From: Chitinophagaceae bacterium
GTDB taxonomy: Bacteria; Bacteroidota; Bacteroidia; Chitinophagales; Chitinophagaceae
Direction: 5' to 3'
Assembly: GCA_947447005.1 (NCBI GenBank)
Contig: CANFHO010000022.1
Location: 1-32,725 of the forward strand
Length of the DNA stretch: 32,725 nt
Below are positions 8,093 through 30,380 of the stretch, piece after piece (within the stretch, counting starts at the first letter, position 1; every line of letters starts with the position of its first letter). Below the pieces are notes generated by a model. The model was not told the origin of the DNA, did no database searches, and worked only from the letters and a program-made list of their open reading frames with translations. Made by a program: the position numbers and the translations under genes.

Positions 8093-9201
8093 AAATAACT
8101 CAGGTTGGTTTTTGGTGTCAATGCCAGTAAAGTTTCATACATAAGTTTGATTGTTTGTTCAATATCATCCTTGTGCAACATCTCAACAGTTGTGTGCATA
8201 TAACGAAGTGGAATGGATATCAATACAGATGGGCATCCATCGTTTGCATATGCAAAAGAATCAGTGTCAGTACCTGTGCTTCTGCTTGAAGTACGCATCT
8301 GAACATCAATCTTGTTTTTATCCGCTACTTCTTCAACAAAATGCAATAATTTATTATGAACTGCAGGACCATAAGACAATGAAGGTCCTTTTCCGCAAGC
8401 AACATCCCCTTCAATAATTTTATTTATCATCGGAGTACTTGTATCATGCGTAACATCGGTAATAATAGCGACATCCGGTTTGATGCGACGGGCAATCATC
8501 TCGGCACCCCTAAGTCCAATTTCCTCTTGAACGGCATTTACCACATACAAGCTATATGGGAGTTTTTTCTTATTTTCTTTCAAAAGCCTTGCTACTTCTG
8601 CAATCATGAACCCCCCAACACGGTTATCCATGGCTCTTCCAATCAGGTAGCCATGTGCCAATTCATCATAGCCTTCTTCATAGGTTGCAACCGCTCCAAT
8701 ATGTATTCCTAATTGTTCAACCTCTTTTTTTGATCTTGCCCCTGCATCCAGAAAAAGATTTTCAACTGCAGGTTGTGGATCTTTTCTTTCTCCACCACCG
8801 ATGCGGGTATGAATGGCTGGCCATCCGAAAACAGCTTTTACAGGGCCTTTTTTCCCGTGTATCCAAACCCTTTTACCTGGTGCAATTTGATGATCTACGC
8901 CACCATTGCGTTTTAAATATATAAGACCTTCGCTGGAAATATAATTTACAAACCAGCTGATTTCGTCTGCATGTGCTTCAATCACCACTTTGAATTTTTC
9001 ATTCGGGTTGATAATACCAGCAGCAGATCCATAAGGGTCAGTAAGTATGTCATCTACATATGGTTTGATGTACTCAAGCCAGAGTTTTTGTCCGCCCGAC
9101 TCAAACCCAGTAGGAGATGGGGTGTTGATGAGTGTTTTAAGAAATTCGTAAGATGACTTAGGAAGAAATTCTTTAGATTTTGATTTGCTGGATTTAGCCA
9201 T
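8089..9201 (-). CDS. M42-family metallo-aminopeptidase (FrvX/YsdC type)
   Basis: A cytosolic peptidase of 370 residues with all the expected M42 metal and catalytic residues: H77 and D79 in EAHADEIS, bridging D192 in AMDNRVGG, E226 and E227 in VQEEIGLRG, D249 in TDVTHDT, and H336 in YMHTTVEM. By family, two metal ions (Zn or Co) trim N-terminal residues from peptides within tetrahedral dodecamers. The Lys/Ser-rich N-terminal tail (MAKSSKSKSK) is an extension. The leftward transcript probably also includes the small lipoprotein gene upstream, with a 25-base gap. Whether the preference is glutamyl or broad cannot be read from the sequence. Confidence 0.9.
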   Translation of the reverse strand: MAKSSKSKSKEFLPKSSYEFLKTLINTPSPTGFESGGQKLWLEYIKPYVDDILTDPYGSAAGIINPNEKFKVVIEAHADEISWFVNYISSEGLIYLKRNGGVDHQIAPGKRVWIHGKKGPVKAVFGWPAIHTRIGGGERKDPQPAVENLFLDAGARSKKEVEQLGIHIGAVATYEEGYDELAHGYLIGRAMDNRVGGFMIAEVARLLKENKKKLPYSLYVVNAVQEEIGLRGAEMIARRIKPDVAIITDVTHDTSTPMINKIIEGDVACGKGPSLSYGPAVHNKLLHFVEEVADKNKIDVQMRTSSRSTGTDTDSFAYANDGCPSVLISIPLRYMHTTVEMLHKDDIEQTIKLMYETLLALTPKTNLSYF

Positions 9202-9226
9202 GATATGTTATGTTTTCAGAACGCTG

Positions 9227-9658
9227 CTAACGTTTAATAATAATGGATTGGGTCTTGGCAGTATCACTTTTATTACCCTTTGCATCTTTCATCCAGAAGC
9301 TGAATACTGCTGTGTCTGCCTTATTACATCTGGGCTGTAATTCAATAGCATATGATAAGGTGATAAGCACTTCACCATCAAAGTTTTTTGTTCTGGGTGT
9401 TTCAGGAGGTATACGATATAAAACAGAATCTGTAAAATCACTTGAAGTGCATCGGGTAGTTTTCTTTTTAATCCAAACTGTATCCACAAAATCACCTTCC
9501 TTGTCAGTAAGTCGCATTCTTACAACAAGATCATCACCAATGGCGATTGTTGAACTGCTTACACTTTTGATGCTAAGTTGGGGCTTCGACTGAATAGAAT
9601 CTTTTCCACAGGAAAGAATAAAGAGCAGAAGAAGGCTATAAATGAAGGATTTTGTCAT
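9227..9658 (-). CDS. Small lipoprotein, function unknown
   Basis: A protein of 143 residues with a lipoprotein signal: hydrophobic residues 5-15, then LSCG with the acylated cysteine at C17. The mature part is mostly beta, with VVRMRLTDKEGDFVDTVWI near 45-65, which resembles the domain found in many uncharacterised Bacteroidota lipoproteins. Two further cysteines (in TTRCTS and QPRCNK) may form a disulphide. It ends in charged residues. It lies just upstream of the M42 peptidase gene on the same strand, and its 5' end overlaps the assumed TTG start of the divergent LuxE-like gene by seven bases. No function can be assigned. Confidence 0.7.
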   Translation of the reverse strand: MTKSFIYSLLLLFILSCGKDSIQSKPQLSIKSVSSSTIAIGDDLVVRMRLTDKEGDFVDTVWIKKKTTRCTSSDFTDSVLYRIPPETPRTKNFDGEVLITLSYAIELQPRCNKADTAVFSFWMKDAKGNKSDTAKTQSIIIKR

Positions 9659-10704
9659 GTACCTTTGTTGATCATTTCAAAATTAACCGATTCAGATTGA
9701 AAAACCTATTCGGAAATAGTCATTTTAAAGAAGATTTAACCCTCATCAAGGACCCCCTTTTTGAACAAAAGGCTTTGGAGCTCTTCCAAAAGCAGTCCAT
9801 TGAAAACAAAATCTACAGTGAATTTATCCAACATTTAGGGATTGACCCACTTGCAATTAACCAAATTGAACAGATACCTTTTCTGCCAATTAGGTTTTTT
9901 AAATCTCACCAACTTACTACAGGGGAATTCAAGCCAGAAGCCATTTTTGAGAGTAGTGGCACCACAGGCATGGTTAATAGCAGACATTTGATTAAAGATT
10001 TGTCTGCATATTTTTTAAACGCAGAAGCGAATTTTGAAACCTTTTTCGGTGATTTGAATAACTATTGTATTCTGGCACTTTTACCATCTTATTTAGAGAG
10101 AAATAATTCCTCATTGGTCTTCATGGCTGAACATTTTATTAAAAAATGTGGTCATCCCAAAGCAGGGTTTTTCTTACACAATCATGCGGAATTATATAAA
10201 ATTATGATGGAATTAGAGAAGTCGTTTACCCCCGTTATTCTCATAGGCGTCACATTTGCATTATTGGATTTTGCAGAAAACCATCACATGCATCTTAGAC
10301 ATACGCATGTATTGGAAACGGGTGGTATGAAGGGCCGGAAAAAGGAAATTACCCGATCTGAATTACATGATATCTTATTCTCCAGTTTAGGTACAGATAA
10401 AATAGGCGCTGAATATGGAATGACTGAACTACAGTCCCAAGCCTATTCGTATAACAATGGAATTTTTTATGCACCCCCCACCATGCGTGTGCTTATGCGT
10501 GCATTGGACGACCCATTTGATATTTGGACAGATAATGATGGTGGAGGCAGAACAGGCGTTATAAATGTGATCGATTTGGCTAACAAGGATAGTCTGGCAT
10601 TTATTGCTACGGATGACTTAGGCAGGTTCCAGGCTGATGGCGGATTTGAAGTCTTGGGAAGGGCTGATAATTGCGATATACGTGGATGCAGTCTGATGGT
10701 GTAA
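9652..10704 (+). CDS. LuxE-like acyl-protein synthetase / acyltransferase
   Basis: This protein of 350 residues belongs to the ANL-related acyl-protein synthetase family (LuxE, PF04443). The diagnostic stretches are IPFLPIRFFKSH (75-86) and the phosphate loop FESSGTTGMVNSRH (99-112). A region around GAEYGMTELQSQAYS follows, as does a C-terminal segment (GRADNCDIRGCS) typical of adenylating enzymes. LuxE activates fatty acids as acyl-AMP and passes them to a cysteine. Many Bacteroidota carry an orphan copy without lux genes, and its substrate is unknown. No ATG lies before the conserved region: the start is TTG at 9652, or TTG at 9697, which would avoid the overlap with the divergent lipoprotein gene. 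The start is therefore uncertain. Confidence 0.85.
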   Translation: MSCTFVDHFKINRFRLKNLFGNSHFKEDLTLIKDPLFEQKALELFQKQSIENKIYSEFIQHLGIDPLAINQIEQIPFLPIRFFKSHQLTTGEFKPEAIFESSGTTGMVNSRHLIKDLSAYFLNAEANFETFFGDLNNYCILALLPSYLERNNSSLVFMAEHFIKKCGHPKAGFFLHNHAELYKIMMELEKSFTPVILIGVTFALLDFAENHHMHLRHTHVLETGGMKGRKKEITRSELHDILFSSLGTDKIGAEYGMTELQSQAYSYNNGIFYAPPTMRVLMRALDDPFDIWTDNDGGGRTGVINVIDLANKDSLAFIATDDLGRFQADGGFEVLGRADNCDIRGCSLMV

Positions 10705-16112: not shown

Positions 16113-16940
16113 ATGATACACGTAGTTTTCAATGAACCTGATATCGATGTGATTGCAAAAGCAATTGAATTGGATGAGACCTTGTCAGGATCCATCATGC
16201 TGGTAAGAGATGATTTTGCTGTGGGCCCTTTGGAAAATCTTCATACACCTGAAGGTGCAGCTACAAGAAAAGATTGGTGGAGAATGGTATTGGAAAATAG
16301 TGACCTTTCAAATGCAGTTGATAATGGACTCGTGAATGATGAGCAAGTGGTGCTTGATATAAAAGAAGCCCTTGCCAATGATGAGAATCAAATCCTGTGG
16401 ATTTGGGCAGCACAGAATAAACACGATGTCTGTGGATACTATTGGCTGATGAGTCAGCTGGCAGAATTTCACGGCAGGGTTTTTATCCTCTACTTGAATA
16501 ACCTGCCCTTTATTAATGAAAAGGGAAATATTTTTTACCCTGATTGGCTTAGTCAAATCCTTCCCAAAGAATTTATTAAAGCAAAAAAACTGGCAAGAGC
16601 AATTACCTCAAGTGAGTTTGAAGTGGATCCTGATGAATGGACAAAGATTTGCAATGAAGGTAAAATGGTTAGATTATTGGAAGGAGGTAAAAAACTCATT
16701 CAAAAGGATGAAGATTTTTATGATGCAGAGTTGCTGAAATATATATCAGTTGATGCACAAAAAGCCCATAAAATCATTCATCAGTGTATATCTAAAAGCA
16801 AAGACACCACAGGGGATGCTTATTTATTATGGAGGCTGAAGAAAATGATTGATTCCGACGAATTTGAAGTAACAGGTGAATTGAAAGGGATGAAAGATTT
16901 TGAAATAAAGAAACGTACTACTGTTCAGGCAGGTGAATAA
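16113..16940 (+). CDS. DUF1835/DUF3658 protein within the topoisomerase IV operon
   Basis: A protein of 275 residues without a known function. The N-terminal part (MIHVVFNEPDIDVIAKAIEL; then SIMLVRDDFAVGPL at 28-41, with a DWWRMVL segment) is typical of DUF1835. The C-terminal part (about 155-275, including YDAELLKYIS and DAYLLWRLKKMID) resembles DUF3658, the usual partner. There are no membrane segments or signal peptide, so it is cytoplasmic. It lies exactly 11 bases from the gene on each side and is certainly co-transcribed with both topoisomerase subunits. That points to a role near DNA topology or chromosome segregation, but this is inference from context only. Confidence 0.8.
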   Translation: MIHVVFNEPDIDVIAKAIELDETLSGSIMLVRDDFAVGPLENLHTPEGAATRKDWWRMVLENSDLSNAVDNGLVNDEQVVLDIKEALANDENQILWIWAAQNKHDVCGYYWLMSQLAEFHGRVFILYLNNLPFINEKGNIFYPDWLSQILPKEFIKAKKLARAITSSEFEVDPDEWTKICNEGKMVRLLEGGKKLIQKDEDFYDAELLKYISVDAQKAHKIIHQCISKSKDTTGDAYLLWRLKKMIDSDEFEVTGELKGMKDFEIKKRTTVQAGE

Positions 16941-21053: not shown

Positions 21054-21110
21054 ATGAAAGCAAATAGAAATTCAAATAACAGTTGGCATTTAAACTCTGA
21101 TCAGGGGTAA
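21054..21110 (+). CDS. Candidate trp-his leader peptide (attenuator)
   Basis: A short frame from ATG 21054 to TAA 21108-21110 encodes MKANRNSNNSWHLNSDQG, 18 residues with adjacent Trp and His codons, TGG at 21084-21086 and CAT at 21087-21089. It lies 75 bases after smpB and 74 before trpE. Its last codons overlap the 5' arm of the candidate antiterminator (21100-21107), so a ribosome finishing at the stop codon would block that arm. The operon makes both tryptophan and histidine, so this Trp-His pair is notable. There is only one codon of each, so chance is not excluded. Confidence 0.5.
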   Translation: MKANRNSNNSWHLNSDQG

Positions 21111-21147
21111 TGCATGTGTTATTTGTATACATAATTAAAGCCCCGAT
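21100..21147 (+). promoter_or_regulatory. Candidate antiterminator hairpin of the trp-his leader
   Basis: ATC-a-GGGG (21100-21107) pairs with CCCCGAT (21141-21147), leaving A21103 bulged. TAAT (21108-21111) pairs with ATTA (21134-21137). ATGTGT (21114-21119) pairs with ATACAT (21127-21132), including one G-U, around a 7-base loop. This gives about 17 pairs in one elongated stem, and it uses the left arm of the terminator at 21137-21160, so the two folds exclude each other. The pairing was worked out by hand. Confidence 0.5.
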
Positions 21148-21167
21148 ACATCGGGGCTTTTGTTTTT
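21137..21167 (+). terminator. Attenuator terminator before trpE
   Basis: AAAGCCCCGAT (21137-21147) and ATCGGGGCTTT (21150-21160) are perfectly complementary over 11 bases, though the innermost pairs must open to form a loop. A T-rich tract follows (TTT inside the arm, then TGTTTTTG). The hairpin ends 24 bases before the trpE ATG. No promoter could fit in between, so trpE mRNA must read through it. That makes it an attenuator and not simply the end of the smpB transcript. Confidence 0.8.
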
Positions 21168-21184
21168 GATAAAAATTTGATTTG

Positions 21185-22636
21185 ATGAAAAAATTGTTAC
21201 TTGACACAAGCGTAATCAAAATGGCAGCCGACCTTTTCACACCGGTTGGAATTTATTTGAGGTTGCGTGATAAATACCGCGATACTATTTTGTTGGAGAG
21301 CACAGATAACAACAGTGCCGATAATAGTTTCTCTTTTATTGGGGTAAACGCAATTGGTGGAATTGAAATCAGTTCTACCAATAGGGTTGAGTTCAAATTT
21401 CCAGGGCAGGATCCGATCGAAGCCCCAATAGTCGAGAATAGCTCAGTCCCTGCATTGGTTTGGGAATATATGCAGTCGTATGAAATTAAAAGTACCTCTA
21501 AGGAAAAAGCTTTTGCACAAGGTTTATTTGGATATACTGCCTATGATGCCATTCCGTTTTTTGAAACAATCAAGTTTGCTGATAAATCATATGATGCAAC
21601 CGTTGATACAGTTGAAAAAAATGTTATTCCTTTGATGCGTTACCGATTATATCAATATGTTATTGCAATCGATCATTTCAGGGATGAATTATACCTGATT
21701 GAGAATCATATTGATGGATTGGAAGGAAATAAACAAGAAATTGCAAATATCATTTCGGGAAGAGATTTGCCTCAGTTTCCTTTCAATGCTGTTGGAGTAG
21801 AAAGTTCAAATCTGACGGATGAGGAATATGTGGAAATGGTAAAAAAAGGTATAGCCCATTGTTTTCGAGGGGATGTTTTTCAAATTGTATTGAGCAGAAG
21901 ATTCCAACAACAATTTAAAGGAGATGAATTCAATGTATATAGGGCTCTGAGAATGGTCAATCCTTCACCATATCTTTTCTTTTTTGATTATGGCGAATAT
22001 AAGCTCATGGGTTCTTCTCCTGAAAGTCAATTGATAATCAACAAAGGACAAGCAATTGTACATCCCATTGCAGGCACTTTCAAACGAACTGGTGATGATG
22101 CAATGGATCGAAAAGAAGCAGAACGCCTGTTATTGGATCCCAAAGAAAATGCAGAACATGTGATGTTAGTAGATCTTGCCAGAAATGATTTAAGCCGCGT
22201 TTGTGACCAGGTGAGTGTTTCACACTATCGCCAAGTTAAATATTATTCTCATGTAATTCATTTGGTGAGTGAAGTGGTGGCTCGTGTAAAGGAAGGATCA
22301 AATCCATTTGTACTGATGGCCAAAACTTTTCCTGCAGGCACTTTGAGTGGTGCTCCTAAATTCAAGGCAATGGAATTGATTGATCAATATGAAAATACTT
22401 CAAGATCATTTTATGGAGGCGCCATTGGTTATATGGGTTTTGATGGAACCTGTAATCAGGCAATCATGATCAGGAGTTTTTTGAGTAGAAACAATACCTT
22501 GTATTATCAAGCAGGAGCAGGAGTTGTTTCATCAAGTGTGCCTGAAAGTGAATTGCAAGAAGTAAACAATAAACTTGGTGCATTGAAGAGAGCTATTGTA
22601 TATGCAGCTGAAGTAAATGCAAATCATAACTTATAA
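21185..22636 (+). CDS. trpE: Anthranilate synthase component I
   Basis: A chorismate-utilising enzyme of 483 residues that, with TrpG, makes anthranilate, the committed step of tryptophan synthesis. The N-terminal LLES (36-39) is the feedback-site motif where tryptophan binds, so inhibition is likely retained. Chorismate-site segments are HPIAGTFKRTGD, the KYYSHVIHLVSEV stretch, TFPAGTLSGAPKFKAMELI and YYQAGAGVVSSSVPESELQE. I start at ATG 21185; a TTG directly before it is also in frame. It is the first gene of the trp-his run, behind the attenuator. trpG follows after 9 bases. Confidence 0.96.
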   Translation: MKKLLLDTSVIKMAADLFTPVGIYLRLRDKYRDTILLESTDNNSADNSFSFIGVNAIGGIEISSTNRVEFKFPGQDPIEAPIVENSSVPALVWEYMQSYEIKSTSKEKAFAQGLFGYTAYDAIPFFETIKFADKSYDATVDTVEKNVIPLMRYRLYQYVIAIDHFRDELYLIENHIDGLEGNKQEIANIISGRDLPQFPFNAVGVESSNLTDEEYVEMVKKGIAHCFRGDVFQIVLSRRFQQQFKGDEFNVYRALRMVNPSPYLFFFDYGEYKLMGSSPESQLIINKGQAIVHPIAGTFKRTGDDAMDRKEAERLLLDPKENAEHVMLVDLARNDLSRVCDQVSVSHYRQVKYYSHVIHLVSEVVARVKEGSNPFVLMAKTFPAGTLSGAPKFKAMELIDQYENTSRSFYGGAIGYMGFDGTCNQAIMIRSFLSRNNTLYYQAGAGVVSSSVPESELQEVNNKLGALKRAIVYAAEVNANHNL

Positions 22637-22645
22637 ATTATTATT

Positions 22646-23239
22646 GTGAAAAGACTGTTGGTATTGGATAATTACGACTCATTTACATATAACCTTGTTC
22701 ATTTGGTAGAGCATATACTAAAGGAAAAGGTTGATGTGTTTCGCAACGATGAGATTAGCTTAGAAGATGTTGGCCATTATGAAAAGATTCTTCTTTCTCC
22801 CGGTCCTGGTATTCCTGTTGAGGCGGGTATATTGCTCCCTGTAATCAAAAAATATGCTTCTACTAAATCCATTTTTGGGGTATGCCTCGGTCATCAAGCC
22901 ATTGGAGAGGCCTTTGGCGGTAAACTAACCAACCTTTCAAGTGTTTATCATGGAGTAGCTACTGATATATCTTTATTTGAAGAGAATGTAGTTTCTGCAT
23001 TTGACAATGATTGGTTCAAAGAAATGGAAAAAACATTGAAAGTAGGTCGTTATCACAGTTGGGTGGTTAATCAGGTTGATTTTCCAACTTCGTTGGAAAT
23101 TACTTCATCAGATGATAACGGAATGATTATGTCTTTAAGACATAAGGAATTTGATGTACAGGGTGTGCAATTTCATCCTGAAAGTGTACTTACACCCATG
23201 GGTGAAAAAATGATTCGCAATTGGTTGAAAACATATTAA
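22646..23239 (+). CDS. trpG: Anthranilate synthase component II (glutamine amidotransferase)
   Basis: A class I glutamine amidotransferase of 197 residues that supplies ammonia to TrpE. The catalytic triad is C80 in FGVCLGHQAIGE, with H177 and E179 in VQFHPES. The start is GTG at 22646 (peptide MKRLLVLDNYDSFTYNLVH), and the DNYDSFTYN motif at residues 8-16 is the family hallmark. It could in principle serve 4-amino-4-deoxychorismate synthase as PabA too, as in some bacteria, but its position in the trp operon makes TrpG the main call. trpD follows after 15 bases. Confidence 0.95.
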   Translation: MKRLLVLDNYDSFTYNLVHLVEHILKEKVDVFRNDEISLEDVGHYEKILLSPGPGIPVEAGILLPVIKKYASTKSIFGVCLGHQAIGEAFGGKLTNLSSVYHGVATDISLFEENVVSAFDNDWFKEMEKTLKVGRYHSWVVNQVDFPTSLEITSSDDNGMIMSLRHKEFDVQGVQFHPESVLTPMGEKMIRNWLKTY

Positions 23240-23254
23240 CGGTTAAATCATTGT

Positions 23255-24247
23255 ATGAAAAAAATATTGAATCACCTGTTTGAACATCGCAACCTGACAA
23301 GAGAAGAGGCGAAAGATGTTCTGTTGGAAATTGGAAAAGGAACATTCAATGAGCATGAACTCAGTGCATTCATGACTGTTTATCTCATGCGTTCTATTAC
23401 TTTGCCAGAGTTGAAGGGTTTTAGAGATGCACTACTTGAGTTGTGCGTTCCTGTTGATATGCAGGGAAGAAAAGTAATGGATATTGTAGGTACAGGCGGA
23501 GATGGAAAAAATACATTCAATATATCAACCTTGTCTTGTTTCATCGTAGCCGGGGCAGGCCAGCCTGTGGCCAAACATGGAAACTATGGTGCAAGTTCTA
23601 TTAGTGGGGCATCAAATCTGATGAATCATTTGGGATATCAATTTAAAAATGATGCTGATGCACTTCGAAATGAGGTAGATCAAACCAATATGTGTTTTTT
23701 GCATGCTCCTTTATTTCATCCTGCCTTGAAAATTGTTGCCCCCATCCGTAAAAATTTAAGGGTAAGAACTTTTTTCAATATGCTGGGTCCGATGGTAAAT
23801 CCATCCGATCCCATGTATCAATTGGTGGGTGTATACAACCTTGAGTTGGCAAGGGTTTACAACTACCTTTTACAAGACATAGCAGATAAATTTATGGTGA
23901 TACATTCGCTTGATGGATATGATGAAATTTCATTGACATCTGATGCAAAGATCATTTCTCATCTTGGCGAAAAAATGATGTCTCCTATGCAAATGGGCAA
24001 CATGCAGATCGATGGAAAAGAAATTTGGGGTGGAGATTCTGTTGAAGAAGCCGCCAAGATTTTTGTTGATATTCTTGTTGGAAGTGGTACACCTGCTCAA
24101 AATGCGGTTGTTACTGCCAATGCGGCTATGGCACTGTATATCACGGGTAATTATACTGATTATGCATCTGCCTTTGCTGCAGCAGATGAAAGTCTGAAAA
24201 GCGGAAAAGCAAATATGGTTCTCCAAAAACTAATGGCCATTCAATAA
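23255..24247 (+). CDS. trpD: Anthranilate phosphoribosyltransferase
   Basis: An enzyme of 330 residues that joins anthranilate and PRPP to give phosphoribosyl-anthranilate, the second step of the pathway. The PRPP-binding loop is VGTGGDGKNTFNIST (78-92), and the anthranilate-site segment KHGNYGASS (107-115) follows. The catalytic domain also carries RKNLRVRTFFNMLGPMVNP, as in the family. It is a stand-alone TrpD, not fused to TrpG as in enteric bacteria. The gap to trpC is 6 bases. Confidence 0.96.
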   Translation: MKKILNHLFEHRNLTREEAKDVLLEIGKGTFNEHELSAFMTVYLMRSITLPELKGFRDALLELCVPVDMQGRKVMDIVGTGGDGKNTFNISTLSCFIVAGAGQPVAKHGNYGASSISGASNLMNHLGYQFKNDADALRNEVDQTNMCFLHAPLFHPALKIVAPIRKNLRVRTFFNMLGPMVNPSDPMYQLVGVYNLELARVYNYLLQDIADKFMVIHSLDGYDEISLTSDAKIISHLGEKMMSPMQMGNMQIDGKEIWGGDSVEEAAKIFVDILVGSGTPAQNAVVTANAAMALYITGNYTDYASAFAAADESLKSGKANMVLQKLMAIQ

Positions 24248-24253
24248 GCTATT

Positions 24254-25033
24254 ATGAATATACTGGACAAGATTGTTGAAAATAAGCGATTGGAAGTGGA
24301 GCAGCGCTGCAAAGCAGTTCCGCTTGAACATCTTATTTCATCTGCATCTTATAATCGTATTCCCATTTCAATTTCAACCAAGTTGAATAAAGAAGGCGCT
24401 TCTGGAATCATTGCTGAATTTAAAAGGAAATCACCTTCAAAAGGAATCATAAATGACCAGGTAAAACCTGTAGATATTACAACTGGTTATCAGGAACATG
24501 GTGCTTCTGCAGTTTCCATACTTACAGATGAACAGTTTTTTGGAGGACATGATCTAGATCTAATTGCATGTAGGCCGAGCTTGAACATCCCTATTCTGCG
24601 AAAAGAATTCATCATAGACCCATATCAAATTCATGAGGCAAAAGCAATGGGTGCTGATTTGATTTTGTTGATTGCTGCTTGTCTTTCTCCTCAGGAAGTA
24701 ATATCTTATTCACGCCTGGCAACTTCATTGGGTATGGAAGTTTTGCTCGAATTACATGACGCAAATGAATTGGATCATGTATGTGAAGAAGTTCAATTGG
24801 TTGGTATCAATAATAGAAGTCTCAAAACCTTTGATGTTAATATAGAACGTAGCTTAAGAATGGCAGCTCAATTGCCTTCAGATAAAATTAAAGTTGCCGA
24901 AAGTGGAATTGATGATCCGGCGCAAGTGAGATTGTTCAGAGATAATGGATATAAAGGTTTTTTGATTGGTGAAAATTTTATGAAAACAAACAATCCTGCT
25001 TTGTCATTGAAGTCATTCATTGAAAAGATATGA
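24254..25033 (+). CDS. trpC: Indole-3-glycerol-phosphate synthase
   Basis: A TIM-barrel enzyme of 259 residues that closes the indole ring from CdRP. The first strand carries IIAEFKRKSPSKG (52-64), with E55 and K57. Further barrel segments are VSILTDEQFFGGH, IPILRKEFIIDPYQ (with the catalytic lysine in LRKEF), VGINNRSLKTF and KVAESGI. It is monofunctional, with TrpF as a separate gene next door (5 bases after its stop), unlike the E. coli fusion. It shares the strand and spacing of the whole operon. Confidence 0.96.
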   Translation: MNILDKIVENKRLEVEQRCKAVPLEHLISSASYNRIPISISTKLNKEGASGIIAEFKRKSPSKGIINDQVKPVDITTGYQEHGASAVSILTDEQFFGGHDLDLIACRPSLNIPILRKEFIIDPYQIHEAKAMGADLILLIAACLSPQEVISYSRLATSLGMEVLLELHDANELDHVCEEVQLVGINNRSLKTFDVNIERSLRMAAQLPSDKIKVAESGIDDPAQVRLFRDNGYKGFLIGENFMKTNNPALSLKSFIEKI

Positions 25034-25037
25034 AACC

Positions 25038-25682
25038 ATGATAAGACTCAAAGTTTGTGGCATGACTAAAATCGACCAGCTGAAACAGTTGGAAGAATTT
25101 GGTGTGGACTTTGCAGGACTTATATTTTATGACAGATCTCCAAGATATGTTACAAGGTTTGGGCTTACCCCTGATATATTAAAAAAAGAAAAATTGGGAA
25201 TCAATAGAGTTGGCGTTTTTGTAAATGAATCCATTGACAATGTTCTACGAATTGTGGATGATTGGAAATTACACATGGTTCAACTTCATGGAGTTGAATC
25301 GCCTCGTTATTGTGAGCAAATCAGTAATCATATCACAACAATCAAGGCATTCCGAATAGGACAGGATGATAATGTATCCTACAAAACATTTCCATATGTT
25401 GAAAATACAGATCTGTTTCTGTTCGATACAAAAGCAAAAGCGTATGGAGGTACTGGTGAAAAATTTGAATGGAGTTTACTAAAACAGCAACCCCTTTCTA
25501 AAGCATATTTTTTAAGTGGTGGAATAGGACCAGATGATGTCGGAAAAATTAAGGAATTTTGCAGCTCGGAAAGAAAGTTGTTTTCCCTGGATGTGAACAG
25601 CGTATTTGAAGTTTCTCCAGGCATAAAAGATATGTCTAAAGTCAAATTATTTAATGAAGCAATCAAAAGCAATATACCATGA
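25038..25682 (+). CDS. trpF: Phosphoribosylanthranilate isomerase
   Basis: A small TIM-barrel protein of 214 residues that performs the Amadori rearrangement PRA to CdRP, the same chemistry as HisA further downstream. Cys7 (LKVCGMT) is the general base, and the general acid should be the Asp in LFLFDTKAKAYGGTG; the phosphate site is AYFLSGGIGPDDV. I choose ATG 25038; an in-frame TTG at 25020 would overlap trpC. The stop overlaps the trpB start (ATGA), so translation of the two is coupled. Confidence 0.94.
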   Translation: MIRLKVCGMTKIDQLKQLEEFGVDFAGLIFYDRSPRYVTRFGLTPDILKKEKLGINRVGVFVNESIDNVLRIVDDWKLHMVQLHGVESPRYCEQISNHITTIKAFRIGQDDNVSYKTFPYVENTDLFLFDTKAKAYGGTGEKFEWSLLKQQPLSKAYFLSGGIGPDDVGKIKEFCSSERKLFSLDVNSVFEVSPGIKDMSKVKLFNEAIKSNIP

Positions 25683-26872
25683 ATAAAATATTTTCTGCGC
25701 CTGATGAACATGGCTACTATGGCGATTTTGGAGGTGCATATATACCCGAAATGCTTTTTCAAAATGTGGAGGAATTGAAATCACAATACCTCACAATTTA
25801 TAATGACCCAGTTTTTCAAAAAGAGTATGCTGATTTGCTTACTGATTATGTTGGCAGACCAACACCTCTTTTTTTGGCAGAGCGACTCAGTGAAAGATTC
25901 AATTCTACTATTTATTTAAAGAGGGAAGATCTCTGCCACACAGGGGCTCATAAAATAAATAATACTGTAGGTCAGATTTTGTTGGCTCAACGACTTGGAA
26001 AGAAAAGAATAATTGCAGAAACAGGTGCTGGCCAGCATGGTGTAGCCACAGCCACAGTTTGTGCTTTGAAAGGCATGGAATGCATTGTGTATATGGGAGA
26101 GAAAGACATTGAACGGCAGGCTCCCAATGTGGCACGGATGAAAATGCTTGGAGCCACTGTTGTACCTGCAACCAGTGGAAGCAAAACCTTGAAGGATGCC
26201 ACCAATGAAGCTATTCGTGACTGGATCAATAATCCAATTGATACACATTACATCATTGGATCTGTAGTTGGCCCACACCCTTACCCAGATATGGTTGCCC
26301 GTTTTCAATCTATCATCAGCAAAGAAATCAGAAGTCAATTATTGAACAAAACAGGAAATGAGTTGCCAACACGCGTTATCGCTTGCGTGGGTGGAGGAAG
26401 CAATGCCGCTGGTGCATTTTATCATTTTTTGGATGAACCCCAAGTTGAAATTGTTGCAGTTGAAGCTGCAGGACATGGCGTGTATAGTGGAATGAGTGCC
26501 GCGACAACACAACTTGGTGTTCCCGGAATTTTACATGGCAGCAAAAGTATTGTCATGCAAACTGCAGATGGTCAGGTTGTAGAACCACACAGTATTTCAG
26601 CAGGATTGGATTACCCAGGCATTGGTCCAATGCACGCCAACCTATATTCATCCGGAAGAGGTACTTTCCTTAGTGCAACAGACGAAGAAGCTTTGCATTG
26701 GGCTTTTGAAGTTTCAAAAATGGAAGGAATTATCCCTGCTTTGGAAACATCTCATGCATTTGCAGTTCTTCCTAATCTTCCTATGGCAGAAAATGACATT
26801 ACAGTGATCTGTCTGAGTGGACGAGGGGATAAGGATTTGGCCACATACATGAATGCAATGGAAAATAAATAA
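25679..26872 (+). CDS. trpB: Tryptophan synthase beta chain
   Basis: A PLP enzyme of 397 residues that joins indole and serine. The PLP lysine is K92 in CHTGAHKINNT, the substrate loop is ETGAGQHGVA (114-123), and the phosphate cup is VGGGSNAAG. The length and the start MNKIFSAPDEHGYYGDFGG are typical of TrpB1, the form that pairs with TrpA. It begins four bases before the trpF stop codon ends. The following trpA starts 10 bases after its stop. Confidence 0.97.
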   Translation: MNKIFSAPDEHGYYGDFGGAYIPEMLFQNVEELKSQYLTIYNDPVFQKEYADLLTDYVGRPTPLFLAERLSERFNSTIYLKREDLCHTGAHKINNTVGQILLAQRLGKKRIIAETGAGQHGVATATVCALKGMECIVYMGEKDIERQAPNVARMKMLGATVVPATSGSKTLKDATNEAIRDWINNPIDTHYIIGSVVGPHPYPDMVARFQSIISKEIRSQLLNKTGNELPTRVIACVGGGSNAAGAFYHFLDEPQVEIVAVEAAGHGVYSGMSAATTQLGVPGILHGSKSIVMQTADGQVVEPHSISAGLDYPGIGPMHANLYSSGRGTFLSATDEEALHWAFEVSKMEGIIPALETSHAFAVLPNLPMAENDITVICLSGRGDKDLATYMNAMENK

Positions 26873-26882
26873 AGTGAATCAG

Positions 26883-27653
26883 ATGAACAGAATAAAATCA
26901 TTGTTTGAAAAAAAGCCTAAACGTATCTTGAACGTATATTTTACGGCTGGTTTTCCTAAACTGGATAATACACTTGAAATAATGCAACATTTGCAGGATA
27001 GTGGTGTAGACTTGATTGAACTCGGTATGCCATATAGTGACCCGCTTGCAGATGGACCCATTATTCAAGCCAGTAGCCTTGTCGCTCTGCAAAATGGAAT
27101 GACAGTAAAAAGACTTTTTGAACAATTGAAAGGGTTTAGGTCAGGCATCACAGTTCCTGTTGTTTTAATGGGATACATGAATACCGTTTTGCAATACGGA
27201 TTTGAAAAATTTTGTGAAGATGCTGCTTCTGTTGGTATAGATGGACTTATCTTACCAGATTTGCCAGCCTATGAGTTTGAAAAAACGTATAAAGAAGTCC
27301 TTAACAGATATGGGCTCAATTTTATTTTTTTGGTTACACCAGAAACAAGCGATGAGAGAGTAAAAATGCTTGATTCAATGAGCTCTGGTTTTTTATATGC
27401 TGTTTCTTCATCTTCAACAACCGGCAAGGATAAACAATTTGGAGATATTTCAACATATCTCAAAAAACTGAACGGACTGCAATTGAAAAATCCATTGTTG
27501 GTGGGCTTCGGTATCAAGGACAAAAATACGTTTGAAGCTGTTCAGGAATACACCAATGGAGCCATTATTGGAACTGCCTTTATTCACGCCATTGCTGATT
27601 CTTCTGATTTGAAAAAAGATGTTACTTCATTTATACATAATGTATTAGCATAA
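26883..27653 (+). CDS. trpA: Tryptophan synthase alpha chain
   Basis: A TIM barrel of 256 residues that cleaves indole-3-glycerol phosphate to indole, which is channelled to TrpB. The catalytic residues are E46 in LIELGMPYSDP and D57 in PLADGPIIQ. The motif ILPDLPAYEFE and the phosphate segment LLVGFGIKDKN are also family-typical. I chose ATG 26883 because the upstream ATG at 26853 lies inside trpB and would add ten residues. The hisH gene begins 10 bases after the stop, with no terminator between them, which links the trp and his blocks. Confidence 0.96.
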   Translation: MNRIKSLFEKKPKRILNVYFTAGFPKLDNTLEIMQHLQDSGVDLIELGMPYSDPLADGPIIQASSLVALQNGMTVKRLFEQLKGFRSGITVPVVLMGYMNTVLQYGFEKFCEDAASVGIDGLILPDLPAYEFEKTYKEVLNRYGLNFIFLVTPETSDERVKMLDSMSSGFLYAVSSSSTTGKDKQFGDISTYLKKLNGLQLKNPLLVGFGIKDKNTFEAVQEYTNGAIIGTAFIHAIADSSDLKKDVTSFIHNVLA

Positions 27654-27663
27654 ATTCATTGGA

Positions 27664-28254
27664 ATGAAAATTGTGATGATAAAATATAATGCAGGCAATG
27701 TTCAATCCCTGAAATATGCATTGGAACGAATTGGTATAACGCCTGTTATCTCAGATGAACCAGGGGAGATACTCAGTGCTGATAAGATCATTTTTCCAGG
27801 GGTGGGTGAAGCGAGTTCTGCCATGAAGTATTTAAAGGAAAAAGGTTTGGATGAAATCATTCAGCAAGTATCTCAGCCTTTCTTAGGCATTTGTTTGGGT
27901 ATGCAATTGATGTGCAGTCACTCTGAAGAAAATGATACACCCTGCTTAGGCATATTTCCCGAAAAAGTTAAATTATTCAAATCAACTGATTCTTCACAGA
28001 AAATTCCTCAAATTGGATGGAATAATATCAGAGATTTAAAATCTGATTTATTTAAAAATATATCTGACAATAGCTACAGCTATTTTGTTCATAGTTATTT
28101 TGCAGACCTTGGCAGTGATACCATTGCAACTTCAGATTACTGTGGTGCATATAGTTCTGCTTTGCACAAACAAAATTTTTATGGTGTTCAATTTCATCCA
28201 GAAAAAAGTGCATCAGTTGGAGAATCCATTTTAAAAAATTTTATCAACTTATAA
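27664..28254 (+). CDS. hisH: Imidazole glycerol-phosphate synthase, glutaminase subunit HisH
   Basis: A glutamine amidotransferase of 196 residues that feeds ammonia to HisF. The triad is C77 in FLGICLGMQLM, with H178 and E180 in GVQFHPEKSA. The N-terminus MIKYNAGNVQSLKYAL (5-20) matches HisH. It partners with HisF two genes downstream. It starts 10 bases after trpA and ends 3 bases before hisA. The early genes hisG, hisD, hisC and hisB are not in the window. Confidence 0.96.
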   Translation: MKIVMIKYNAGNVQSLKYALERIGITPVISDEPGEILSADKIIFPGVGEASSAMKYLKEKGLDEIIQQVSQPFLGICLGMQLMCSHSEENDTPCLGIFPEKVKLFKSTDSSQKIPQIGWNNIRDLKSDLFKNISDNSYSYFVHSYFADLGSDTIATSDYCGAYSSALHKQNFYGVQFHPEKSASVGESILKNFINL

Positions 28255-28257
28255 CAT

Positions 28258-28992
28258 ATGCAGATTATTCCTGCAATAGACTTAATTGATGGTAAGTGTG
28301 TTCGCCTGACGGAAGGGGATTATTCACAAAAAACGGAATATGGTACTTCTCCATTGGAGTTGGCAAAGATGTACGAGGATATGGGGATTGTGCGATTGCA
28401 TTTGGTTGATTTAGATGGCGCAAAGGCAGGTTCAGTAAAGAATTGGAAAGTAGCTGAAGAAATTTCTTCAGGCACTTCTTTGAAAATAGATTTTGGCGGG
28501 GGAGTGAAAACCCGTGAAGAAGTCATTCGAATAATCGATCTCGGAATTGATTTGGTTACTGTAGGCAGCATTGCCGCAAAACAACCTGAATTATTTCAGT
28601 TGTGGTTGGAGGAATTTGGTGCCAACCAATTTATGTTGGGAGCTGATGTAAGAGATGAATTTATCATGGTTGGTGGTTGGATTGAAAAGTCCTCTATTTC
28701 TCTTATCCCTTATTTGCAAGATTATGTTTCAAAAGGGATTCAATCGGTTTTTTGTACGGATGTTAGCAAAGACGGCAGATTGGAAGGACCCTCCACAGAG
28801 TTGTATTTGAAAATTAAAAAACAAATCCCTGAAATACATTTGATTGCCAGTGGTGGCGTTTCTTGTATGGATGATCTGTATGCCTTGAAAGAGGCTGGTT
28901 GTGATGGCGTCATTATAGGTAAGGCGATTTATGAAAAAAGAATCTCTTTACAGGAACTCAGTGATTTTATCAATCAAAACCAACTCAATTAA
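28258..28992 (+). CDS. hisA: ProFAR isomerase HisA
   Basis: A TIM barrel of 244 residues that isomerises ProFAR to PRFAR, the fourth step of histidine synthesis. Strand 1 has [15 protein letters not shown] with catalytic D8. The [13 protein letters not shown] stretch near residue 130 should hold the second catalytic Asp. The phosphate segments are DFGGGVKT and [12 protein letters not shown] HisA that also did the TrpF reaction would be a PriA, but a separate trpF is present, so there is no need for that. hisF begins one base after its stop. Confidence 0.95.
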
Positions 28993-28993
28993 G

Positions 28994-29755
28994 ATGTTAA
29001 CGAAAAGGATCATACCCTGTCTTGATATTAAGGATGGCAGAACCGTTAAAGGAACAAATTTTGTTGACTTGCGTGATGCTGGTGATCCGGTAGAATTGGC
29101 TGCCATGTATGCTGAGCAAGGTGCCGATGAATTGGTATTCCTTGACATTACAGCTACCAATGAAAAAAGAAAAACACTGGCCGCCTTGGTGGATCGAATT
29201 GCACATCGAATCAATATTCCATTTACAGTTGGTGGTGGTATTAGTTCTGTTGATGATGTAAGAGTATTGTTGGACCATGGTGCAGATAAAATTTCAGTTA
29301 ACACTTCCGCATTCAAGAATCCGGATTTGATCAATAACTTGGCAAGCGAATTTGGAAGTCAGTGTGTGGTATTGGCTATTGATACAAAGCAACACGATGA
29401 TGGTGAGTGGTATGTATATCTAAATGGCGGACGTTTGGCAACACCTACAACATGCCTGGATTGGGCCAAAGAAGGTGTTTTGAGGGGTGCTGGTGAAATA
29501 TTGCTTACTTCCATGGATCATGATGGCACAAAACAAGGATTCGCAAAAGAGATTACTGGGTTGGTCTCCAGAAATGTGTCAGTGCCAGTGATTGCTTCTG
29601 GTGGCGGAGGTAAAGCAGAACATTTTGCAGAGATACTACATGGATATGCAGATGCTGCCCTTGCTGCAAGCATTTTTCATTTCAGGGAAGTAGATATCCC
29701 TGACCTTAAAACATATCTGGATAAACAAGGTATTCCTGTCAGAAAGAATATTTGA
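28994..29755 (+). CDS. hisF: Imidazole glycerol-phosphate synthase, cyclase subunit HisF
   Basis: A cyclase subunit of 253 residues that, using ammonia from HisH, converts PRFAR to imidazole glycerol phosphate and AICAR. Catalytic D11 lies in [11 protein letters not shown] and D130 in VLAIDTKQ. The phosphate-binding GGGISS and [10 protein letters not shown] are both present. The start is ATG 28994; an upstream in-frame start at 28931 lies inside hisA and would add 21 residues absent from the family. The spacing to hisA of one base implies coupled translation. Confidence 0.96.
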
Positions 29756-29777: not shown

Positions 29778-30380
29778 ATGGATCTTAAGATAGATTTCGG
29801 AAAATATAATGACGGACTAGTTCCTGCCATCATTCAGGATATTACTTCATCAAAAGTGTTGATGTTGGGTTACATGAATCAGGAAGCATTTGATACGACC
29901 ATCTCTACTGGAAAGATTACATTTTTTAGCAGATCCAAACAGAGACTCTGGACAAAAGGGGAGGAGAGTGGTCATTTCATGGAGTATAAGTCTGTTTCAG
30001 TTGACTGTGATCAGGATGCCCTTTTGTTCAAAGTGCATCCAACCGGACCAGTTTGTCACACTGGCGCAGATACTTGCTGGAATGAAGTAAATCAGACTGA
30101 AGATTTTTTACAATACCTGGAGAATATAATCAGACTCAGACTTTCAGGTGATGATGAAAATTCATATGTTAAAAAATTATTCGCAAGAGGAATCAATAAG
30201 ATAGCCCAAAAGGTTGGAGAAGAAGCAGTGGAACTCGTAATTGAAGCGAAAGATAATAATGATGAATTATTTTTAAATGAAGCGGCAGATCTGTTATTCC
30301 ATTATTTGCTTTTGCTTAACAGTAAAGGGTTTAGTTTGCAATCAGTTAAGGAAATCCTTAAACAAAGACATAAAAAATGA
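29778..30380 (+). CDS. hisI: Bifunctional PRA-CH / PRA-PH HisIE
   Basis: A protein of 200 residues with two enzymes of histidine steps 2 and 3 fused in the usual order. Residues about 1-110 are the HisI cyclohydrolase (LMLGYMNQEAF, then SVSVDCDQDA, and GPVCHTGADTCW for zinc). Residues about 115-200 are the HisE pyrophosphohydrolase (KIAQKVGEEAVELVIEAK). With HisA and HisHF these genes cover steps 2 to 5. Its stop codon overlaps the start of the thioredoxin-family gene by four bases (ATGA). Confidence 0.95.
   Translation: MDLKIDFGKYNDGLVPAIIQDITSSKVLMLGYMNQEAFDTTISTGKITFFSRSKQRLWTKGEESGHFMEYKSVSVDCDQDALLFKVHPTGPVCHTGADTCWNEVNQTEDFLQYLENIIRLRLSGDDENSYVKKLFARGINKIAQKVGEEAVELVIEAKDNNDELFLNEAADLLFHYLLLLNSKGFSLQSVKEILKQRHKK

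Follow-up and report, generated by a model that had tools for sequence, protein, structure and literature searches.

A putative attenuator with adjacent tryptophan and histidine codons before a trp-his gene cluster in the Chitinophagaceae

In a Chitinophagaceae bacterium the trpE gene, which heads a cluster of trp and his genes, is preceded by what is very probably a ribosome-mediated trp attenuator, and candidate control codons for the two operon products (TGG CAT) lie next to one another in its leader. Within the family of this bacterium (called f1 here) retention of the histidine codon goes together with the presence of his genes downstream, and on balance we favor a switch that would read tryptophan and histidine together, a reading that is supported in f1 but falls short of proof.

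Gene content and features of the window

Profile searches name smpB and then trpEGDCFBA-hisHAF-hisIE in the window (the whole 32,725-nucleotide stretch of DNA that was analyzed), in agreement with a previous reading made without database searches (the sequence-only reading), which had assigned the genes downstream of the leader to tryptophan and histidine synthesis. The names trpE and trpF lean on gene context as well, because their scores lie under the curated cut-offs of the best-matching models. The features are as follows.

21054-21110, + strand, leader peptide ORF MKANRNSNNSWHLNSDQG, 18 codons plus stop (ATG at 21054, TAA at 21108-21110)
21084-21089, + strand, candidate control codons TGG (Trp, 21084-21086) and CAT (His, 21087-21089)
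21073-21125, + strand, predicted 1:2 (protector) hairpin of 19 pairs that hides GGGG 21104-21107 (window fold; arm-swap test in relatives)
21100-21147, + strand, predicted antiterminator of 17 pairs, -11.9 kcal/mol (window fold; weak signal in relatives)
21137-21168, + strand, predicted intrinsic terminator of 10 pairs with T tract (window fold; relatives)
21185-22636, + strand, trpE (best match TIGR00564, under the curated cut-off; operon context)
22646-23239, + strand, trpG (subfamily TIGR00566, over the cut-off)
23255-24247, + strand, trpD (profile search)
24254-25033, + strand, trpC (profile search)
25038-25682, + strand, trpF, start codon inferred (best match NF002298, under the cut-off; operon context)
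25679-26872, + strand, trpB (profile search)
26886-27653, + strand, trpA, start codon inferred (profile search)
27664-28254, + strand, hisH, 10 bases past trpA (profile search)
28258-28992, + strand, hisA (profile search)
28994-29755, + strand, hisF, start codon inferred (profile search)
29778-30380, + strand, hisIE (profile search)

Elsewhere in the window, positions 16113-16937 encode a 275-residue protein that lies between two topoisomerase subunit genes and has no NCBIfam match at E 1e-10.

Leader, stems and terminator

When the parts are folded separately the window yields three mutually exclusive stems: the 1:2 hairpin, the antiterminator and the terminator. The terminator pairs 21137-21146 with 21151-21160 (-16.1 kcal/mol for 21137-21168) and is followed by its T tract; a gap of 24 bases separates its end at 21160 from the trpE ATG at 21185. 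The antiterminator uses the left arm of the terminator and is itself excluded by the 1:2 stem, in which both the GGGG arm and the CAT codon are paired (-16.9 kcal/mol for the hairpin within 21073-21125 when 21073-21136 is folded). The 136 nt from 21040 to 21175 fold 4.1 standard deviations better than their dinucleotide shuffles, none of 200 of which is equally stable. The sequence-only reading had described the 18-codon leader with its adjacent TGG and CAT and its stop codon, the terminator with its T tract 24 bases ahead of trpE, and the alternative 17-pair stem; each of these parts is present as described, but it overlooked the 1:2 hairpin. An Rfam scan of the window at gathering score gave no matches, and no Bacteroides-type promoter motif was found near the leader.

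Conservation of the element in relatives

Among 214 f1 genomes searched, 165 have a TrpE match at threshold, and 101 of these (set 2) were chosen by genus and contig before their leaders were viewed in this set; the short loci L083-L111, which this search also gave, received no separate analysis. Set 2 partly overlaps a previously viewed group of 80 named loci, which are the records with the nearest TrpE, many of them labelled Chitinophagaceae. A leader ORF that contains tryptophan codons lies upstream in 78 of the 80 named loci, the exceptions being L008, in which no leader was seen, and L032, which has only 65 bases of upstream sequence.

In set 2, 99 of the 101 loci have at least two adjacent Trp codons in the leader before trpE. 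The leaders fall into four types, namely WWWH or longer (84), at least three Trp followed by another residue (12), WWH (3) and W-H (2), and the adjacent Trp and His codons, whose conservation in relatives the sequence-only reading had proposed to check, are kept in most of them. In 96/101 loci the 700 bases before trpE contain a short ORF with at least three adjacent Trp codons. None of 101 base-shuffled copies of those 700 bases does; short ORFs there reach a run of two Trp codons at most (in 4/101). A terminator-like hairpin with a score of at least 18 follows the leader in 100/101 loci, as against 1/101 control stretches inside trpE and 2/101 shuffled sequences. This score cut was adopted because a looser terminator scan was unspecific on the controls, with matches in 87/101 stretches inside trpE and 85/101 shuffled ones. 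GGGG lies near the stop codon in 87/101 leaders, CCCC is present in the left arm of the terminator in 76/101 leaders with a terminator, and the stop codon and the terminator are a median of 34 bases apart. A ribosome-mediated trp attenuator is strongly supported by the conservation of all four: the leader, the GGGG arm, the terminator and the spacing.

One Trp codon and one or two His codons are present in the leader of the window and in those of its close relatives (L003, L004, L005, L010, L114 and L115). These relatives thus have a single W and retain H, and in two of them the leader reads WHH. Outside f1 a Trp run is common and the residue after it is varied (N, S, K, L, Q, C, P, R, F, Y or I); in a second family, f8, it is often H.

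The arms of the stems were also compared by a swap test, in which the pairing of a leader's own arms is set against that of arms exchanged among 97 f1 leaders, with relatedness not removed. The terminator arms give z -21, a value that is biased since these arms were chosen by pairing, and those of the 1:2 hairpin give z -5.8 and -5.9. The sequence-only reading had proposed a search for compensatory changes in the 21100-21147 pairing, and here the signal is weak: the antiterminator arms give z -3.1 with the GGGG:CCCC core and -1.1 without it, and an unrelated control pair gives -1.8. RNAalifold recovers only the terminator from a MAFFT alignment of whole leaders, and little except CUC:GGG from gapless subsets.

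The histidine codon and linkage to his genes in f1

All 60 set 2 loci with hisH, hisA and hisF downstream have a histidine codon after the Trp run (55 CAT, 5 CAC), as do 18 of the 26 loci with no his gene seen downstream, 5 of the 9 with a partial his set and all 6 with too little sequence. CAA and CAG occur among the unlinked leaders, and neither is found in the 60 linked ones. The named loci, which are partly the same genomes, have His in 47/47 linked, 6/9 unlinked and 18/21 cases of unknown linkage. For the comparison of the 60 with the 26, which leaves out the 6 loci on short contigs and the 9 with partial his genes, Fisher's test gives p 2.7e-5 without correction for descent. One of the linked loci, L163, has a gap of 7.8 kb between trpA and hisH.

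Descent was taken into account with a TrpE tree of 150 rows, a quick tree with many weakly supported forks, in which 87 f1 rows carry both traits; 14 changes of linkage and 5 of His are placed among these rows. All five His losses fall in lineages without his genes downstream, which make up 22.5% of the branch length (p 0.0006 for five of five). Two of the five share one genus, and when they are merged into one event p is about 0.003, so that the independent losses number only four or five. Likelihood ratios for dependence of His loss on linkage give p of about 5e-5 with one extra rate and 3e-4 with two; the full model also accommodates a His loss that precedes the loss of linkage. Independent-pair tests in f1 were not significant, with no pair opposed and too few events to decide.

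The genus g18 (L202, L204, L208 and L210) is a true exception to the rule: it has hisH alone past trpA, no hisA or hisF was found in the stretches examined, and the leader reads WWWQ, with glutamine, in all four loci. When g18 is taken as linked, the same likelihood ratios give p 0.0012 (one rate) and 0.005 (two rates).

The second family and pooled tests

In f8, sampled mostly with one genome per genus, His is present in 21/26 linked and 11/22 unlinked leaders (Fisher p 0.03). These counts omit L326, L335, L336, L337, L344, L373 and L380-L386, whose linkage or leader is uncertain, as well as six phylum loci (L387-L392); linkage was judged by coordinates except in L304 and L305. When corrected for descent the association is not significant (p 0.24 with one rate, 0.49 with two), and independent pairs split both ways. 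The five linked leaders without His have Q, N, I, L and Y in its place, and Asn-His comes after the Q. A codon count of 29 unlinked leaders gives 13 CAC and 3 CAT, hence His in 16/29; the Y of L363 (WYWH) was taken by script in this count, and its His by hand in the tree test.

A likelihood test on 150 rows (p 1e-7) was rejected as biased, because it had omitted those f8 loci that lack TrpE, among them five linked ones with no His. When the test was redone with 20 loci added, p on the pooled tree of 170 rows ranged from 5e-6 to 7e-5 depending on the model, and f1 carries the signal; six unlinked f8 loci (L374-L379) lie outside this tree.

By eye, f8 leaders such as L327, L333, L340 and L377 have a codon after WWW, a stop context GUGAAC and a terminator loop GUUCAC, with variants, that look complementary to one another, and they look like the same switch in a different layout. 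In L304, about 7.1-9.2 kb past the trpE start, two genes that appear by eye to encode a DAHP synthase and an aromatic amino acid hydroxylase lie between trpA and hisH.

Proposed mechanism

With no translating ribosome the 1:2 hairpin would mask the GGGG arm and the terminator would form; a ribosome at the stop codon would cover the same arm with the same outcome. A ribosome stalled with the Trp codon or the next codon, His, in its A site should break the 1:2 hairpin and leave GGGG free, and the free arm would allow the antiterminator to form and trpEGDCFBA-hisHAF-hisIE to be transcribed. The leader would thus act as an OR gate that shortage of either amino acid alone could open. The anatomy, its conservation and, in one family, the link of the His codon with downstream his genes are observations; where the ribosome stands, how the switch answers to either amino acid and in what order the stems fold we infer.

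From the start of the His codon to GGGG there are about 16 bases in the commonest f1 layout (72/101 leaders) and 17 in the window, and the distance from the first A-site base to the front edge of a ribosome is about 12-13 bases. A ribosome held at the Trp or His codon would therefore be expected not to reach GGGG, and one held a codon further on to begin covering it, which would place the His codon at the last position of use for sensing. The signal in the window itself is thin, with a single codon for each of the two amino acids.

Alternatives to shared sensing

The alternative that deserves most weight, though we consider it unlikely, is an attenuator that senses tryptophan alone and in which pairing in the 1:2 hairpin is the main reason to keep the codon that follows the Trp run, histidine being a by-product of RNA structure. 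That codon is paired in the fold of the window, lies in a pair of the 1:2 hairpin in almost every f1 leader folded and has a mean pairing probability of 0.81 over 60 linked f1 leaders (the window standing in for L205, in which no terminator was found). His is also frequent without his genes in f8 (the 16/29 unlinked leaders), where by eye many CAC codons lie opposite GUG in the GUGAAC at the stop codon and the CGC of the Arg leaders L333 and L340 faces GCG, so part of the conservation of His may stem from RNA pairing. In f1, however, the codons of eight unlinked leaders that lack histidine pair nearly as well (0.72), and the loss of His there tracks the absence of his genes in the likelihood ratios. 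His lacks an AUG partner at the stop codon in 28/60 linked leaders, and such a partner is present in 5/8 unlinked leaders that have lost His. The five CAC codons of the linked leaders, set against the CAA and CAG of unlinked ones, point the same way but are only suggestive, as the third base is mostly unpaired in two of the four linked CAC leaders folded and fully paired in the other two. Retention of His in f1 may exceed what pairing explains; the codon finds other partners too, and the comparison is not decisive.

That His is an inherited passenger of a Trp attenuator, with its link to his genes a chance product of few events, seems improbable. The small number of independent f1 losses and the lack of significance in f8 are what such chance would leave, but the f1 likelihood ratios (p 5e-5 to 0.005) and those of the 170 rows, carried by f1, speak against it. 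Least probable is decay of the element in the genome of the window, such that it senses neither amino acid well and the cluster depends on an upstream promoter and partial read-through. The single W and single H and the lack of a promoter motif nearby would fit decay; against it, leader, GGGG arm and terminator are intact, and one W followed by H also occurs in the six near kin. The shared Trp/His sensor proposed in the sequence-only reading gains from linkage in f1, also after correction for descent, and is weakened by the f8 result (p 0.24) and by the position of the codon within an RNA stem.

Relationship to known systems

In the multivalent attenuators of the thr and ilvGMEDA operons a single leader has control codons for two or more amino acids; for the thr operon, a 1987 paper by Lynn refers to Thr and Ile codons in its title. 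The window element resembles them in this respect, but differs in that it joins two separate pathways, tryptophan and histidine, in a fused operon. Like the classical Escherichia coli trpL-type attenuator (PMC1183508), it has a leader peptide that contains Trp, stems of the 1:2, 2:3 and 3:4 kinds and a U-tract terminator before trpE. Unlike that type, it has a His codon at the presumed last stall position that leaves the antiterminator free, his genes downstream and no Rfam match.

Filimonas lacunae and Thermoflavifilum thermophilum have trp genes inside the his operon (PMC8305728), the same gene arrangement as in the window cluster, and the available part of that paper describes no leader or regulation. 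Among sources likewise available in part, leader-peptide attenuation before amino-acid operons is mentioned in passing for Flavobacterium psychrophilum (PMC9723704) and leader-like small ORFs for Bacteroides (PMC7366714), and authors writing in 2010 knew leader peptides, beyond their own new cases from Firmicutes, only from Proteobacteria and Actinobacteria (PMC2965389). A literature search that left subscription journals mostly outside its reach found no record of a Trp-His attenuator or of a Bacteroidota trp leader of this kind. Lopatovskaya and others reportedly surveyed attenuation in bacteria in 2010, and that survey may list Bacteroidota trp leaders.

The hisG leader and operon history

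In the genome of the window hisG lies on another contig (locus L214, G000:C37, around 9115-9660) and has its own leader, MNLMNHTHHHVMP, with the residues HTHHH and, by eye, a terminator-like hairpin after it. In this genome, then, hisG is preceded by a His leader and the cluster with hisHAF-hisIE by a Trp-His one. In 61 loci examined (this genome and 60 others) a short ORF with at least three consecutive His codons was found upstream of hisG in 57, and none was found in L225, L246, L249 and L258. The hisG leader thus resembles the leader in the window in being a leader peptide before his genes with, in the genome of the window, a terminator-like hairpin, but its His run has no neighboring Trp codon (57/61 loci).

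Of the 30 linked f1 genomes tested (of 60), 19 have hisG on the strand of trpE and 4.6-8.2 kb upstream of it, 8 have it on another contig and 3 far away; among linked named loci, hisG or hisD is upstream in 21 and neither is found within at least 8.5 kb in 15. Where hisG precedes trpE, a his operon probably surrounds the attenuator, which would give it a reason to read histidine. In 24 of 26 unlinked f1 genomes hisF is within about 8 kb of hisG, so the trp leader there has no hisHAF to serve.

It is quite possible, though we offer it tentatively, that a trp operon was inserted with its own attenuator into an ancestral his operon, that the His codon made the attenuator an OR gate, and that lineages in which the two were separated again were free to lose it. 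After such an insertion a terminator that answered to tryptophan alone would cut hisHAF-IE off from histidine control and, when histidine is short, prevent expression of the second half of that operon, which the His codon would remedy. If this is correct, one codon can re-tune an attenuator upon operon fusion, linked and unlinked species form a natural test of which leader codons are sensed, and two pathways are under joint control throughout a family of Bacteroidota.

The gene order in L019, L028, L070 and L071 is hisG, hisD, hisC, two other genes, hisB, leader and trpE (hisG and hisD named by tblastn, the rest by eye), and in L071 an ORF on the opposite strand lies between hisB and trpE. The two genes between hisC and hisB in these four loci appear by eye to encode a sugar or sorbosone-type dehydrogenase and a cytochrome c.
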